Shown here one piece after another: positions 35,079 to 41,968 of a DNA stretch of 64,000 nucleotides. Position 1 is the stretch's first letter; each line of letters begins with the position of its first letter. The stretch is from Hymenobacter tibetensis (GTDB lineage: Bacteria > Bacteroidota > Bacteroidia > Cytophagales > Hymenobacteraceae), in assembly GCF_022827545.1 (NCBI RefSeq), contig NZ_CP094669.1:3314001-3378000 (forward strand), in the 5' to 3' direction. Below the pieces are notes generated by a model. The model saw only the letters and a list, made by a program, of their open reading frames with translations, was not told where the DNA came from and ran no database searches. The translations under genes were made by a program, and so were the position numbers.

Positions 35079-37352
35079 CTACAGCAGCTTATCCATGTAG
35101 ATAGGCAACTCACGGACGCGTTTGCCGGTAGCGTGGTACACAGCGTTGGTAATGGCCGCGGCTACGCCGAGCAAGCCTACTTCTCCGATACCTTTCACGC
35201 CGAGCGGGTTCACTTTGTCGTCTTCCTCTTCCACGAAAATCACGTCGATGTCGTGGATGTCGGCGTTGACGGGGATGTGGTACTCGGCATAGTTGTGGTT
35301 CATGTAGCGGCCGAGGTTGTGGTCCATGACGGTTTCTTCCATCATGGCCATGCTAATGCCCCACACCACTGACCCAAGCACCTGGCTGCGGGCGGTTTTA
35401 GTATTAAGAATACGACCGGCGGCTACGGCATTCACTACTCGCGTCACGTGCACGGTGCCCAAGTCCTCGTCTACTTTTACTTCTACGAACACGGCGTTGT
35501 GGGAGTGCAACGAGTACGGGAGCTGCTTGATCATGTCGGGCCCAGAATTACTGGTGGCCTCCAGCTTCTCCTCGCCGCTGGCTTGCAGCACGTCGCGAAT
35601 GACAACCGATTCTTCGGGTTTTTCGCGCAGTCGTATTTGGCCGTTGGCAAACTCTACGTCGTCGATGTCGGCGCCTTTTAGCGGGTGGCCTTCCATCTTC
35701 TGAGCGAGCTTGAGCAGTTTCTCCCCAATGCTGGTGCACACTTTCTGCACAGCCGTACCCACGGAAGCCGCCGTCCAGGACCCGCCTTCCACCGGCGACT
35801 CCGGCAAATCGGTATCCCCGAGCTTGAAGGTTACGGCCTCCAAAGGCAGACCAAGCGTTTCGGCCGCAATCTGGGTCATGATGGTGTAAGTGCCGGTGCC
35901 AATGTCACCGGTGGCGCTGGCTACGGTTAGCTTGCCATCAGCGGTAAGCGTGGCTTTGGCACTGACTTTTTGCATGGAAGCATCCCACACGCCTCCGGCC
36001 ATGCCCCAACCGATCAGCATGTTGCCTTCGCGCATGGAGCGCGGCTCGGCAGTACGTTTGTCCCAGCCGAATCGGGCGGCGCCTTGGTGGTAGCATTCGC
36101 GCAATTTCTTGCTAGAGAAGGGCCGCTTCAGGTTTTGGTCTCGCTCGGCGTAGTTGCGAATGCGGAAGTCAAGCGGGTCGAGTCCAGCCTCGTAGGCCAT
36201 TTCGTCCATGGCTACTTCGAGGGCGAAGGAGCCGGTGGCGGCACCGGGGGCGCGCATGTCTTGGGGCGTAAACACGTCGAGCTTGGCTATCTGGTAGCCT
36301 AACTTCACGTTGTCGCACTGATAGAGCATACCCGACCAGTTCACCACGTTTTCGGTATAGTCCTCGAATTTCGAAGTCTCGTGGAGGGCGTGGTGTTGCA
36401 GGGCAGCCAGCGTGCCGTCGGGGTTGGTGCCCATCTTCACGTATTGCAGCGTGTGGGGCCGGTGGCCGAACGAGAACATCTGCTGGCGCGTGAGCGTGAC
36501 GCGCACCGAGCGTTTCAGCTCCAGCGCGGCCAGCACGGCCAAGAACACTGTGTATTGGGGCCGCAGGCCCGAGCCGAAACCACCGCCCATGTACAGGTTA
36601 ATCACCCGGGCTTCGTCTTTGCTGAGCCCGAAGATTTTGGTGATGTACTGCTGCACGTTGTATACGCCCTGCGTTTTGTCGTAGGCCGTGATTTTGCCAT
36701 CGGGATGATACTCTACAGTGGTACCGAACATCTCCATGGGGTTGTGATGCTGCGTGCCGTGCATGTACTCGCCCTCGATGCGGTGGGTGGCGTTTTTCAA
36801 CGCGTCGTTGGGGTTGCCGCGGGGCGACGGTGGCGGCATCCAGCCGGTTTTGCCTCGGCCCGGCTCGAACCCTTCGTCGCGCCTCAGCTCGATGTTGGTT
36901 TCAAACTTCTCTTCTTCGTAATCAATCTGCAACAAGGACGCGCCATAGCGAGCCAGCTCGAACGTTTCGGCTATGACTACCGCTACGGGCTGCATGTTGA
37001 ACATGATTTTATCGTCGTGCAGAGGCCGGAACGGCGAACCGCCGGGTGCTACGTCGTCTTTGTAGTTGCGGTCAAACCAGGCCAACGACGGCACGTTTTC
37101 GTGCGAGAAAATCTGCACCACGCCTGGCAGCGCCAACACGGGCTCGGAGTGGATTTTGGTGATGCGGCCCTTGGTGATGGTGCTGTTGACCACGTAGCCA
37201 TACAGCATACCGGGCACCTTGAATTCGGCCGAATACTTGGCGGCACCCGTCACCTTGGCCGGCCCATCGACGCGGTTGGTGGGCTTGCCGATGTAGCTGG
37301 TTCCGGTAGTGCCCGCCTCGACGGTGGGCGGAGTAGTTATAAGCTGGCTCAT
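35079..37352 (-). CDS. Xanthine dehydrogenase family, molybdopterin-binding subunit
   Basis: A 757-residue large subunit of the xanthine-oxidase family. N-terminal domain begins [25 protein letters not shown]; molybdenum-cofactor contacts include [10 protein letters not shown] and, near the C-terminus, the base-catalyst Glu in [10 protein letters not shown]. It hydroxylates an aldehyde or purine-type substrate; the closest known plan is the YagTSR periplasmic aldehyde dehydrogenase, but there is no Tat signal visible on this subunit. Its ATG overlaps the stop of the FAD subunit gene by four bases (ATGA), so translation is coupled. Last gene of a three-gene operon. Confidence 0.93.
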
Positions 37353-38374
37353 GGATTCGAGTTTAGATAAGCGTTGGCATCGAGGGGCTGGTCCATTTCG
37401 GTGGCCTGCTTGAGGGCCCGCACGATGGCGCGCTTGCCGAGCTCGATCTTGAAGTTGTTGTAGCCGTAGCCTTGGGCGTTGTGCATGATGGCCGTGGCGG
37501 CTTGGCGGAAATTATCTTCGGTAGCCGACTGGCCGCGGAGGGTTTCCTCTACCGCCATATCGCGCCACGGCTTGTGCGCCACGCCGCCCAAAGCAATGCG
37601 GGCCTCCTTGATGGTGGTGCCTTCCAGCTCCAACCCCACCGCCACCGATACCACGGCAAAGGCGTAGCTGGTCCGGTCGCGCAGCTTGAGGTAGGTGAAG
37701 TTCTTCTCAAAGCCTTTGGCTGGCAAATCCACCGCCGTAATCAGCTCGCCGGTTTCGAGTGTGTTGTCGCACTCTGGCTGGTCGCCAGGCAAGCGGTGGA
37801 AGTCATCGAAGGCAATGGTCCGCTCGCCATGTGGGCCACTCACGCGCACGGTGGCTTCGAGGGCTGCCAGGGCCACAGCCATATCCGAGGGGTGCGTGGC
37901 AATGCACTGCGGACTGGTGCCCAAAATAGCATGGATGCGGTTGTAGCCTTGCAGGGCCGAGCAACCGGAGCCGGGCTCCCGCTTGTTGCAGGGCGTGGAG
38001 GTGTCGTAGAAATAGTAGCAGCGGGTGCGCTGGAGCAAGTTGCCGCCGTTGGTGGCCATGTTGCGCAACTGCGCCGTGGCGCCGGCCAATATCGTCTGGC
38101 TTAGCAGCGGATACCGCTTTTCCACTTCGGGATGCCAGGCGGTATCGGCGTTGGTGGCGAGGGCGCCGAGCCGCAGGCCGCCTTCCGAATTGTCTTCGAT
38201 GGCCGTGAGCGGCAACTTATTTAGGCCGATGAGGTGCGTGGGCTTTTCCACGTTTTCCTTCATCAAATCCAAGAGGTTGGTGCCGCCCGCCACAAACGCC
38301 GATTTCGAGTTGGTGGACTTGTCGCGCACGGCCGTGTCTACGGCTGTTGCGCTAGTATAGGTGAAGCTGTTCAT
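37349..38374 (-). CDS. Xanthine dehydrogenase family, FAD-binding subunit
   Basis: A 341-residue medium subunit. FAD contacts: [25 protein letters not shown] (residues about 28-52) and the [24 protein letters not shown] segment; a second Cys cluster ([15 protein letters not shown]) indicates a possible [4Fe-4S] insertion as in YagS and HcrB. It passes electrons from the molybdenum centre via the 2Fe-2S subunit. ATG at 38374 is the start; the upstream open frame overlaps the previous gene. Middle gene of the operon. Confidence 0.93.
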
Positions 38375-38454: not shown

Positions 38455-38994
38455 CTAGCTTCTCAGTTCCCCTTTCTGCTTGTCTACTACTTCCTTCACC
38501 GCGGCCAAGATTCCTACGTAGGCACCGCAGCGGCAGAGGTTGCCACTCATCAGCTCCCGGATTTCGTCTTCGGTGTGGGCGCGGCCTTCGTTGATAAGCC
38601 CTTGGGCCGAACAAATCTGGCCGGGCGTGCAGTAGCCGCACTGGAAGGCGTCGTGGTCGATGAAAGCTTGCTGCAAGGGGTGCAAGTTGCCTTCTTGGCC
38701 CAACCCTTCGATGGTGGTTACTTCGTTGCCGTCCTGCATTACGGCCAGTGTGAGGCAGCTATTGATGCGCTTGCCGTTGACGAGTACCGTACAAGAACCG
38801 CACTGCCCATGGTCGCAGCCTTTTTTGGTGCCGGTCAGGTCGGCGTATTCGCGCAGGGCATCGAGCAAGGAAGTCCAGGGGGCCAATTCCAGCTCCCGTT
38901 TTACTCCGTTGATGAGTAGTGTGACGTGGCCAGTAGCGGGAGGCGCCGGTAGCGCACCGGCCCCGGCGGGCATGGTGGTTAAGTTTGGTTTCAT
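38455..38994 (-). CDS. Xanthine dehydrogenase family, 2Fe-2S subunit
   Basis: A 179-residue small subunit with both [2Fe-2S] clusters: plant-type [15 protein letters not shown] with a further Cys, and the C-terminal CGYCTPGQ plus CRCG motifs. The 20-residue N-terminal extension is Ala/Pro-rich without an obvious twin-arginine signal, so export is uncertain. First gene of the operon. No ModE-type site is visible upstream of it. Confidence 0.93.
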
Positions 38995-39284: not shown

Positions 39285-41530
39285 TTACAATCCATAGGTT
39301 ACAGCGAGGTAGTACAAACCACCTACACTAGGACCACCCAAATACGACTCATAGTACTTGTTGAGTAAGTTGCTGGCACCGAGTTTGAAGCGCAGGTTCG
39401 GCGTGGGCACGCTGTAGCTAAGCTGGGCATCGAGGGTGGAATAGGCCGGCACGGAGCCGCTTACCAGGAAGGTCTGCGAGTAGTACTTGGCTTGCCAGCG
39501 GTAGTTAAGGGCAAACCCGACAGTCTTCCACACCTTTTCATTGCCCAAGCTCAGGTTGTAGGCCCAACGCGGCGTGTTGAAGCCGTCTTCCAAACCGTCG
39601 CCGGATTCGGTACGGTCGAGGCGGGTATATGTGATGCTGGCGCCGGCCAGGTAGCTGGCGGCCAGCTCGTAGCGCAGCCCCAAGGACCCGCCGTAGTTGT
39701 ACACCTGGCTTTGGGCGTTGGTCCAGAGGCGGTAGCGGTTTTGGGTGGCGCGGTTGCTGAGGTAGATGGCCGCCGAATCGGGGTTGTTGGTTTTGGGCAC
39801 GTAGGCTTCCACCTGCGCGATAAAGTCGCGGTAAGCGTTGTAGTAGAAATCCACATCAAGCAGCAGTCGGCCACCGGGCAGCAGCGCCGCTTTGTATCCG
39901 AGTTCCAACGACTTGATATACTCGGGGTTGAGGTAGGTGTAAGGCGTTTTTACCAGCATATTTTTGTTCTGCTCGATGGCTGCTTGGCGTTTCTGTGCGG
40001 CACTGCCCGGGCTGGTAGTGGCGTTGACGGCCGCCGTTACGGCCGAGTTGAAGGCGTCGATGGAGCTGCGCAGGTAGCTGTTTTCAAACACTCCATTCGA
40101 CATCACCCGCAGACCGCCAATTCGTTTCACTTGCCCGCTGTTCACGTTGGAAAAGCCCTCAAACAAGCTCGGAAACCGGTAGCCACTCTGGTAGCTCAGC
40201 CGAAAATTATGCTGCCGGACAGGCGAATACACGGCCGTAAAGCGCGGATTGAAACAGACCGTGAAGTAGTCGTTCTTATCGGCCCGGAGCGTGGCCGTAA
40301 GCCGGATCCGCTCGTCGAGCAGCCGGATGCCCGCTTGCACGAAGCCGCCGGTTTTGCTGTACGTGAGGTTGTCGTGGAGGGGGTCTTTGTTTTTTTCTGG
40401 GTTGATGAAGTAGTTGCCGTCGGGCTGCACGATATAGGTGCGGTGGTCGGCTCCTAGCAGCAGGTCGAGGGTGGTCGGCCAGGGGTGGCGGCCGCGGCGC
40501 AACGCCTCTGCCACGTTCACTTGGCCTTCGGCGTGCAACAAATCAGCCTTCACGCGCAGAGCAGCCCCTTGGTCCCAATTGTTGATGGTGGCCAATGCCA
40601 ACAGCTGTTCCTGAAACTCGGGGGTGCCGGGTTGCAGCCGGCCGGCATCGGCGGCGGTGCGGGCGGCGGCATGGGCCTGCGCGCCACCACGTAGCTTTTG
40701 CCGCCCAGCGTCAGGCTGCTGCGGTTTGATGATTCGTTGCCGTAGCTGTTTACAGGGTCCTGGGCAGGATTTTCGGACCCCAAAAGGTTAGTAGTGGCAT
40801 TACCGTTGGGATTTAGCTCGGCTTGATTGTTGGCTATCCAGTCGGAGCCGCGCAGGTAAGTGCCGTTTACTTTGAAAGCCAGCTTGGGCGTCAGCACCTT
40901 GGCATAGCGGACACTGGTTTCCGAAAACAGCGATGCGCCGCTGTTAGGGTCTTTGAGGTGGTTGACCCCGGTTTTCTGCTGCACGCTCAACCCCTCACTT
41001 CGAAAAGGGTTTCTGGTACTGAAGTTAGCTAGCCCGTTGATGGCATTTAGGCCGTAAAGAGCCGCCGCTGTGCCCGGTACTATCTCCACGGTGCTGATAT
41101 CCAAATCACTCGGCCCGAGCACATTGCCAATGGGCCCGCCGATGTGCGGTGCCTGGTTGTCGATGCCGTCTACGAGCTGTGCAAACCGCACGTTGGTGGT
41201 GTTGGTGAATCCCCGAGCATTTATCACCTTGAAGCTCAAGCTCGGGGTAATGACTTGTACACCCTTCAAATGCTCGATGGCATCGAAAAACGACGGCGCT
41301 GGCGTGAGCCGTAAGGTGCGGGCGTTCAGCTTCTCCACCGTCACCGGCGACTGTAAGAAGCTTTCCTGCACCTTGGAGGCGGCCACCACCACTTCCTGCA
41401 GTGCTACGTTGTGGCGGGCCGTATCAAGCGGAGCCGTGGGTTGGGCAATTTGCTGAGAATGAGCTAGTACGGGGAGCAACAGCAAGCCTAACACGTGCCA
41501 AGCAGTACATCGAAGGGTAGCTGTGCTCAT
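39285..41530 (-). pseudogene. TonB-dependent receptor, one-base frameshift; likely molybdate-linked
   Basis: The gene reads MSTATLRCTAWHVLG from 41530 with a signal peptide, plug domain (LQEVVVAASKVQESFLQSPV, GIDNQAPHIGG, GTAAALYGLNAINGLAN) and barrel strands to VVAR, then shifts frame at about 40678-40690 and goes on as AQAHAAARTAADAGRL through the rest of the barrel to a C-terminal YYLAVTYGL. Both parts together would give about 748 residues. The shift fits loss of one base within a GCGCGC run. A ModE-like operator sits 7 bases before the start codon and a ModE-like regulator gene is just upstream, so its cargo is probably molybdate or a molybdate chelate. The shift may be a sequencing error, a true mutation or, least likely, programmed. 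Confidence 0.85.
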
Positions 41531-41536
41531 AGAGTT

Positions 41537-41560
41537 CGTTATGTTTTCGTGAACATAACG
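41537..41560. promoter_or_regulatory. ModE-type operator
   Basis: CGTTATGTT-N7-ACATAACG, the core of an 11-bp perfect inverted repeat (41535-41545 and 41552-41562) with a 6-base spacer. From memory, the E. coli modA operator has the form CGTTATATT-N7-ACATAACG with the same 24-base length. It lies between the ModE-like gene stop (41615) and the TonB receptor start (41530), so binding there should block the receptor gene. Confidence 0.8.
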
Positions 41561-41614
41561 AAGAACTTGATAGATTGTTAGCGTGCAACTTTGAAATATC
41601 GGGCGCTGCGTGGT

Positions 41615-41968
41615 TTACAAGAGCCGGGCCTCTTCTGCTCGCAGAAAAGCTTGAAACCGCTCTTGCAAGGCTTGAAACTCTTGTATCATCTGCTGGCCCT
41701 GGGGTGTTAGTTCGGTGCCACCGCCATGCTTGCCACCAGTTTGGGTGAGTACCAGCGGGCTTCGGGCCTGAGCGTTCATGGAGCTTACCAGTTCCCAAGC
41801 CCGCTTATAGGACATACCCATAGCTTGGGCCGCTTTCGAAATAGAACCTAGCGAGTGAATCTGCGTCAGCAACTCCAGCCGTCCGATACCCATAAACCGG
41901 TCGTCGGTTTCCATCCAGAGGCGGCCGTTGAGGCGAAAAGTCAGGTCAGCGCGCAGCAGGTCTTTCAT
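41615..41968 (-). CDS. ModE-type winged-helix regulator without molbindin domain
   Basis: A 117-residue protein matching the N-terminal DNA-binding half of ModE: LNGRLWMETDDRFMGIGRLELLTQIHSLGSISKAAQAMGMSYKRAWELVSSMN and the GGKHGGGTELTPQGQQMI turn. The two molybdate-binding (TOBE/molbindin) domains of E. coli ModE are absent, so metal sensing must come from elsewhere or be lost. It lies 84 bases upstream of the TonB receptor gene on the same strand, with the ModE-like operator between them. ATG at 41968 chosen; an upstream extension to 42007 is less like the family. Confidence 0.9.
   Translation of the reverse strand: MKDLLRADLTFRLNGRLWMETDDRFMGIGRLELLTQIHSLGSISKAAQAMGMSYKRAWELVSSMNAQARSPLVLTQTGGKHGGGTELTPQGQQMIQEFQALQERFQAFLRAEEARLL

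Follow-up and report, generated by a model that had tools for sequence, protein, structure and literature searches.

Background

Molybdate uptake is usually described as a process of the inner membrane, where it is carried out by ModABC or MOT1, and passage across the outer membrane is left to diffusion. In E. coli the regulator ModE, which has an N-terminal DNA-binding domain (1b9m) and C-terminal molybdate-binding domains, acts on a 24-bp operator, and its targets concern molybdate uptake and molybdo-enzymes. We analyzed a stretch of 64,000 nucleotides from Hymenobacter tibetensis (contig NZ_CP094669.1, positions 3,314,001 to 3,378,000), here called the window, in which a predicted ModE-like operator lies just before a gene for a TonB-dependent outer-membrane receptor, and a gene for a ModE-like DNA-binding protein is directly upstream of the receptor gene on the same strand. 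The locus appears to be one copy of a Bacteroidota module made up of a short ModE-like repressor, an operator and the receptor. We put the probability at about three in four that this TonB receptor serves for molybdate (or tungstate, or a chelate) and is repressed by ModE bound over its promoter.

The system resembles that of E. coli in the DNA-binding domain, in an operator of equal length and spacing, and in targets that appear to concern the same functions. It differs in that the C-terminal molybdate-binding domains are missing in the ModE-like protein, the principal target found encodes an outer-membrane receptor and not modABC, and the half-site is CGTTATRTT and not CGNTATATA. A single-domain ModE is also present in Campylobacter. 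The DNA-binding domain stands alone, as here, in PDB 2ijl (135 amino acids, aa) and, according to the accessible part of PMC545781, in Desulfovibrio, where a different inverted repeat precedes modABC, whereas here the operator is E. coli-like and the target is a TonB receptor. A molybdate route through an outer-membrane protein has likewise been proposed in Pseudomonas aeruginosa, involving IcmP and a ModA secreted by the type VI secretion system; IcmP partners a secreted binding protein, unlike the receptor here (PMC8602904, accessible part). The same part of that source has MnoT (Mn) and OprC (Cu) as TonB receptors for a scarce metal that are induced when the metal is low, but these differ in having cation ligands and other regulators. 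No description of a ModE-controlled TonB receptor was found in the open-access literature, including the accessible parts of PMC545781, PMC8602904 and PMC11734730, most subscription papers lying outside this scope, and nothing that looked relevant was found there on sulfate-linked TonB receptors or on bacterial MOT1. In this module a conserved ModE-type switch appears to act mainly on an outer-membrane receptor, which offers a substrate candidate for receptors named merely 'TonB-dependent' or 'iron complex' receptor and raises the question whether inorganic oxyanions are imported through TonB.

The predicted operator before the receptor gene

On the minus strand the window reads, from 41562 to 41535, TTCGTTATGTT-CACGAA-AACATAACGAA, which is a perfect inverted repeat with arms of 11 bases and a loop of 6, and the original prediction was right in noticing it. 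The operator core within this repeat has 24 bases, namely, two 9-bp half-sites and a 6-bp spacer. Its 3' end lies 6 bases from the receptor ATG at 41530 and the end of the full repeat 4 bases from it, and not 7 bases as had been claimed. The claimed likeness to the E. coli operator holds for length and spacing, since the core is a 24-bp palindrome with the consensus spacing given in the accessible part of PMC545781; the half-sites agree at 7 of 9 positions. Perfect inverted repeats of at least 11 bases with a loop of at most 10 occur at five places in the window and therefore repeats alone are not unique, but the core sequence is, being the sole place in the window with at most three mismatches to the pattern (chance expectation 0.08). 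When registers were counted apart the window had nine such repeats, as against a mean of 0.27 and a maximum of 3 in 30 local shuffles. A chance dyad was rejected on the rarity of the core, the shuffle controls and the conservation described below. Scans for sigma-70 promoters and for terminators gave counts about equal to or below those of the shuffles.

Conservation of the box, the ModE-like gene and the receptor

In the genus itself 24 relatives were searched (25 genomes with that of the window). A receptor orthologue at 75-90% identity is present in 20 of the 24, the other four having distant paralogues only. Among these 20 orthologues the ModE-like gene is in the region around the receptor in 18 (not at loci L045 and L050), and a box of at least 20 bits lies before the receptor, or before a small gene that precedes it and has a molybdopterin-binding domain (PF00174), in 19 (not L045). 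The box profile was built from nine training sites from the window and the same-genus genomes. When 39 whole genomes were searched for CGTTATRTY-N6-RAYATAACG, all 16 exact matches were before the receptor operon. Five more sites had one mismatch; a receptor operon follows four of them and a pao operon (L043) the fifth, so that, allowing up to one mismatch, 20 of 21 sites lie before the receptor operon; with two mismatches there were 21 further places, at least four of them before pao.

A wider set, the named loci, consists of the best 80 of 356 relatives from a scan of genome contigs; they are mostly from Hymenobacter, with Solirubrum, Adhaeribacter, Mucilaginibacter, Chitinophaga, Pedobacter and an unclassified Bacteroidetes metagenome-assembled genome. 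A box of at least 20 bits lies within 1.6 kb upstream in 70 of the 80, and such a score was reached in none of 80 shuffled regions (maximum 7.6) and none of 80 intragenic stretches (maximum 8.2). Leaving out the six genomes that supplied training sites, the count is 64 of 74. The ModE gene is within 4 kb upstream in 70 of the 80, and box and ModE gene occur together in 66 (co-occurrence p 1e-4). Among the 70 boxed loci the identity is 87% and 84% in the arms, 43% in the spacer and 28-31% in the flanks, although picking by profile favours the arms.

In a survey of 395 genomes of the class, a short ModE match (E 1e-12) was found in 63 and a receptor match (E 1e-140) in 62, with at most 11 ModE and two receptor candidates scored per genome, so that absences in this survey are not final. 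Receptors above 1100 bits were called Mo-type, which gave 14 places in 13 genomes, to which we added G169 (945 bits, by its grouping in the tree) and the broken copy in the window. ModE was found in 14 of the 15 genomes with a Mo-type receptor and in 49 of the remaining 380 (p 2e-11, not corrected for relatedness). At 9 of the 16 Mo-type places the ModE gene is on the same strand and no more than about 0.8 kb upstream; these nine belong to families f1, f11, f55, f56, f67 and f68, and none of the other receptor places listed in this survey adjoins a ModE match. A box above 17 bits precedes the receptor at 8 of the 14 loci L094-L107 and at none of the 25 loci of the sister and outer receptors. 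At L058, the deepest Mo-type branch, CGATATATATTTACGTATATATCG is found 21 bases before the start and agrees fully with the consensus core of E. coli, CGNTATATA-N6-TATATANCG, the outer AT pairs excepted (PMC545781, accessible part). That ModE, box and receptor are associated in these genomes is close to certain.

Lying only a few bases from the start codon, the perfect inverted repeat might, instead of being a ModE operator, act in the receptor mRNA as a hairpin or attenuator of its leader. We consider this highly improbable, because the conservation is of the sequence, beyond pairing alone, several relatives have unequal halves, the dyad resembles the published ModE consensus, and the box is also found, at varying distances, before a small molybdopterin-binding-domain gene, pao, modA, moeA and TauE-family genes.

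The ModE-like protein

The gene directly upstream is ModE-like, in agreement with the original prediction: its product matches TIGR00637 with an E value of 9e-25, although at 86.6 bits it is below the cut-off of 98.5, and its matches among solved structures, namely, 2ijl, 1b9m (E 7e-13) and 1o7l, are all three ModE-type. Its reading frame is open as far as 42007. The C-terminal tandem MOP/TOBE domains are absent from the protein, which ends after 117 aa. The 17 rows of the ModE protein alignment (A1) do not include the sequences from L038 and L043. Since the molybdate-binding domains are missing, the rule that the receptor gene is repressed when molybdate is plentiful is borrowed from E. coli. 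The claim that ModE controls the receptor divides into a regulatory link, which the conserved dyad and ModE gene strongly support, and a molybdate-repression rule carried over from E. coli, and the question is raised by what means a ModE lacking molbindin domains would sense molybdenum.

The receptor forms a clade of its own

In a tree of 60 receptors made by a quick method, 36 Mo-type rows form one group with a support of 100 in the Shimodaira-Hasegawa-like approximate likelihood ratio test; a sister group of 10 rows has the same support and an outer group has 14 rows. Alignment A3 omits L227, which has a stop in its translation, and, by choice, L094-L096, L098 and L128. Clustering with siderophore or vitamin receptors free of any ModE link, which the original prediction had named as the contrary outcome, was not observed; the receptors are one clade apart, and a ModE-like gene is close by in several families.

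The receptor could nevertheless import an iron-siderophore, heme or cobalamin, with the control by ModE being indirect, for example through the Fe-S need of molybdo-enzymes. Its best generic matches are heme (TIGR01785), IreA/CirA and siderophore models, its only matches among sequences of solved structure are to the colicin I receptor, and some sources term members 'iron complex outermembrane receptor'. All such family matches are, however, far below the curated cut-offs. With the siderophore, heme and B12 models of NCBIfam the 5' piece of the window receptor reaches 55.9 of 316.85 (TIGR01785) and 27.7 of 223.5 (TIGR01783), scores that are lowered because the pieces are incomplete; a siderophore or vitamin receptor identity was rejected on these scores. 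The recurring annotated neighbours are genes for the molybdenum cofactor (Moco) and molybdo-enzymes, no siderophore genes were noticed in reading that was not a systematic search, and half of the sister clade that was read adjoins sulfate assimilation. An iron or cobalamin ligand is therefore quite unlikely.

Molybdenum genes around the receptor and the regulator

In what follows the labels MoeB, CysH, CysD, CysN and CysJ were assigned from Pfam domains and sequence likeness. In four same-genus genomes (L053-L056) a MoeB/ThiF-rhodanese gene and MoaA come next after the receptor, with MoaD and MoaE further on in L053, where two other genes intervene, L055 and L056. The full moeB-moaA-moaD-moaE set is present in seven of the 80 named loci (L196, L198, L204, L207, L215, L221 and L222), some of which are from the same genomes as L053-L056. 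Moa or MoeB genes are present at 16 of 20 loci elsewhere in the class that have a short ModE. The boxes at the 20 loci stand before TauE-family permeases, moeA, ModE itself or a further TonB receptor, and in L135 the gene that follows the box encodes a protein with no Pfam match. The targets recognised for the regulator are thus mostly molybdenum genes. MoaA itself does not separate genomes with the receptor from those without, being over the cut-off in all 25 same-genus genomes.

For the inner-membrane step, ModA is over the cut-off in five of the 25 same-genus genomes and weak, below the cut-off, in four others; the window genome has no ModA match. MOT1 (PF16983), a molybdate carrier family that we take as the inner-membrane step here, scores more than 90 bits in exactly the 20 genomes without ModA over the cut-off, that of the window included, and at most about 30 bits in the five with ModA. 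This mutual exclusion has a p of 2e-5, not corrected for descent. The MOT1 gene of the window genome sits among moeA, moaE, moaD, moaA, moeB and fdhD. In the class, 12 of the 15 genomes with a Mo-type receptor have no ModA match. Four ModABC loci from the five genomes with ModA were compared (the G005 locus was left out), and in each the best-scoring site lies just before modA. The scores are 12.5, 20.5, 6.9 and 13.9 bits, of which the 6.9 falls within the control range and the other three are above its maximum of 8.2.

Three side observations concern other transporters. A different type of TonB receptor, with little likeness to the first, is directly upstream of modA at L242:9378-11927, L243:9566-12019, L244:5851-8520 and L245:5538-8030. 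A third type (670 aa) at L137:4211-6349 has a ModE-like box of 29.5 bits and is near ModE and Moco genes. Boxes also lie directly before TauE/SafE-family permeases that adjoin a short ModE at L139:6180-6976 (30.7 bits), L142:6551-7326 (18.5) and L145:7575-8333 (19.2), and these permeases are candidate inner-membrane molybdate carriers.

Proposed mechanism and the points against it

According to the accessible part of PMC7366714, TAnnTTTG is the -7 promoter element of B. fragilis. Among 62 distinct boxes, 31 carry it solely on the receptor strand and 3 solely on the opposite one, while 3 carry it on both strands and 25 on neither. ModE bound at the box would cover the -7 promoter, and therefore simple repression is the likely mode. 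In relatives with an intact gene, the most likely ligand of the receptor at the cell surface is molybdate, tungstate or a small molybdate complex, which would be imported to the periplasm with TonB energy. From there a carrier in the inner membrane, which is MOT1 in most of the Hymenobacter searched and ModABC in others, would pass it on to cofactor synthesis. With sufficient molybdenum ModE would bind the dyad and block transcription; about half of the relatives have the -7 element inside the dyad. That the cargo is molybdate or a close relative is probable.

Several observations weigh against this proposal. The dyad, which the original prediction expected before orthologous receptors, is kept before most of them, but both it and the ModE gene are absent in six of the 80 named loci (L167, L169, L172, L173, L177 and L219) and at L045, and eight of the 80 have only one of the two. 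In the class, six of the 14 loci L094-L107 lack a box above 17 bits, and G400 has the receptor and no ModE match among the limited candidates scored. The four same-genus relatives in which the receptor is missing have MoaA. Related species are non-independent samples. The window box reads TATGTTCA and not TAnnTTTG, and in 25 of the 62 boxes the element is found on neither strand. A TOBE/Mop match (E 0.001) was found in none of the 25 same-genus genomes, all of which carry MoaA, and the same search gave matches in 12 of 14 control genomes. The Moco-MOT1 cluster of the window genome has no box, the best site there having 2.4 bits.

Lastly, the receptor gene in the window is broken. The plug (PF07715) and the beta-barrel (PF00593) are both matched, on separate pieces, and between 40643 and 40685 about 137 codons of relatives are unmatched and the frame is changed. 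The unmatched stretch corresponds to residues 291-427 of the L040 protein, and the 20 same-genus orthologues have a single open frame of about 850-1000 aa. The original prediction overlooked this break near 40.64-40.69 kb, which is either a real lesion or an assembly error. A second Mo-type copy was not found in the same genome with the class-level model and two candidates scored, and the sole further family member detected among these is a sulfur-linked paralogue. The switch is intact here, but its target, the gene being broken, is probably a remnant, or misassembled. We give slightly better than an even chance to the locus in this genome being a remnant whose receptor no longer works, as the gap, the frame change and the failure to find another copy suggest; this is compatible with molybdate uptake by the family. 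On the other side, the operator is intact and the frames of ModE and the molybdo-hydroxylase are open, and therefore the loss may be recent, or the break an assembly error. Molybdate import, as originally predicted, is favoured by the context, namely, the Moco genes in the operon, the box-like modA sites and the presence of either MOT1 or ModA in all same-genus genomes searched; for the window itself the broken receptor speaks against it.

The sulfur-linked sister clade

The paralogue in the window genome belongs to the sister group (L059:7214-10093; C1 about 2289231-2291876 by model match) and is 52% identical in the N-terminal part. It sits among sulfate-assimilation genes, namely, two for proteins of the 3'-phosphoadenosine 5'-phosphosulfate (PAPS)-reductase fold (CysH and CysD), a CysN-type GTPase and a siroheme methylase, with a flavodoxin-type reductase, a DUF2490 gene, a sulfite-reductase protein and a siroheme-TauE fusion also around it. 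This suggests a receptor for sulfate or a sulfur compound. Five of the 10 sister members have cys genes beside them (L059, L061, L114, L118 and L133; three are same-genus), L116 has a TauE-type gene and L062 a DUF2490-family gene (family 30) as neighbour, and nothing was recognised among the neighbours at L113 and L117. At L115:1443-9465, PstS-like, PstC, PstA and PstB genes come after a receptor that branches off basally in the sulfur-linked clade.

These neighbours bear on the form in which molybdenum would be taken up. TonB receptors usually carry large or scarce ligands, and free molybdate could use porins. Catechol molybdophores are known in Azotobacter and would be a precedent for import of an organic complex, such as molybdate bound to a catechol-type or other metallophore, and not of the free oxyanion. 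We regard this as possible, although on the unlikely side, because the relatives beside sulfate-assimilation genes and the pst cluster suggest recognition of tetrahedral oxyanions. Going beyond molybdate uptake under ModE, we propose tentatively, at somewhat less than an even chance, a wider family of Bacteroidota TonB receptors for small tetrahedral oxyanions, with a molybdate clade under ModE, a sister clade that would take up sulfate or a sulfur oxyanion compound and is encoded in cys operons, and one member next to a pst cluster; a ModE that has no known sensor domain would then respond to molybdenum status by a new mechanism. If true, Bacteroidota would pump inorganic anions across the outer membrane.

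Neighbouring genes and a second site in the genome

The features of the locus are collected in Table 1. Three molybdo-hydroxylase genes sit downstream of the receptor on the same strand. The original prediction had linked the receptor to this enzyme. By the profile, some relatives have weaker boxes, namely, ahead of pao in L037, L038, L039 and L048 and at the corresponding place in L046, but the scan gave no box above 12 bits at pao in the window.

Table 1. Features of the receptor locus in the window
Feature	Position	Strand	Matches and remarks
ModE-like DNA-binding protein without molybdate-binding domains	41615..41968	-	TIGR00637, PF00126; 117 aa from the start conserved in relatives
ModE-like operator (predicted)	41537..41560	-	CGTTATGTT-N6-AACATAACG, reading towards the receptor; pattern and profile matches
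TonB-dependent receptor gene, 5' part	40550..41530	-	plug and first barrel part; homology stops near 40685
TonB-dependent receptor gene, 3' part	39285..40643	-	remaining barrel, other frame
2Fe-2S subunit, PaoABC/xanthine-dehydrogenase-type molybdo-hydroxylase	38455..38994	-	
Flavin adenine dinucleotide (FAD) subunit of molybdo-hydroxylase	37349..38374	-	
Molybdenum-cofactor subunit of molybdo-hydroxylase	35079..37352	-	nearest NCBIfam model PaoC, 611 bits (cut-off 1180)

The window genome has a second PaoABC-like molybdo-hydroxylase operon at L060:3445-7416 (C1:959644-963615). About 2.5 kb from it, at C1:966164, there is a box-like site of 25 bits, which precedes a gene without a Pfam match.
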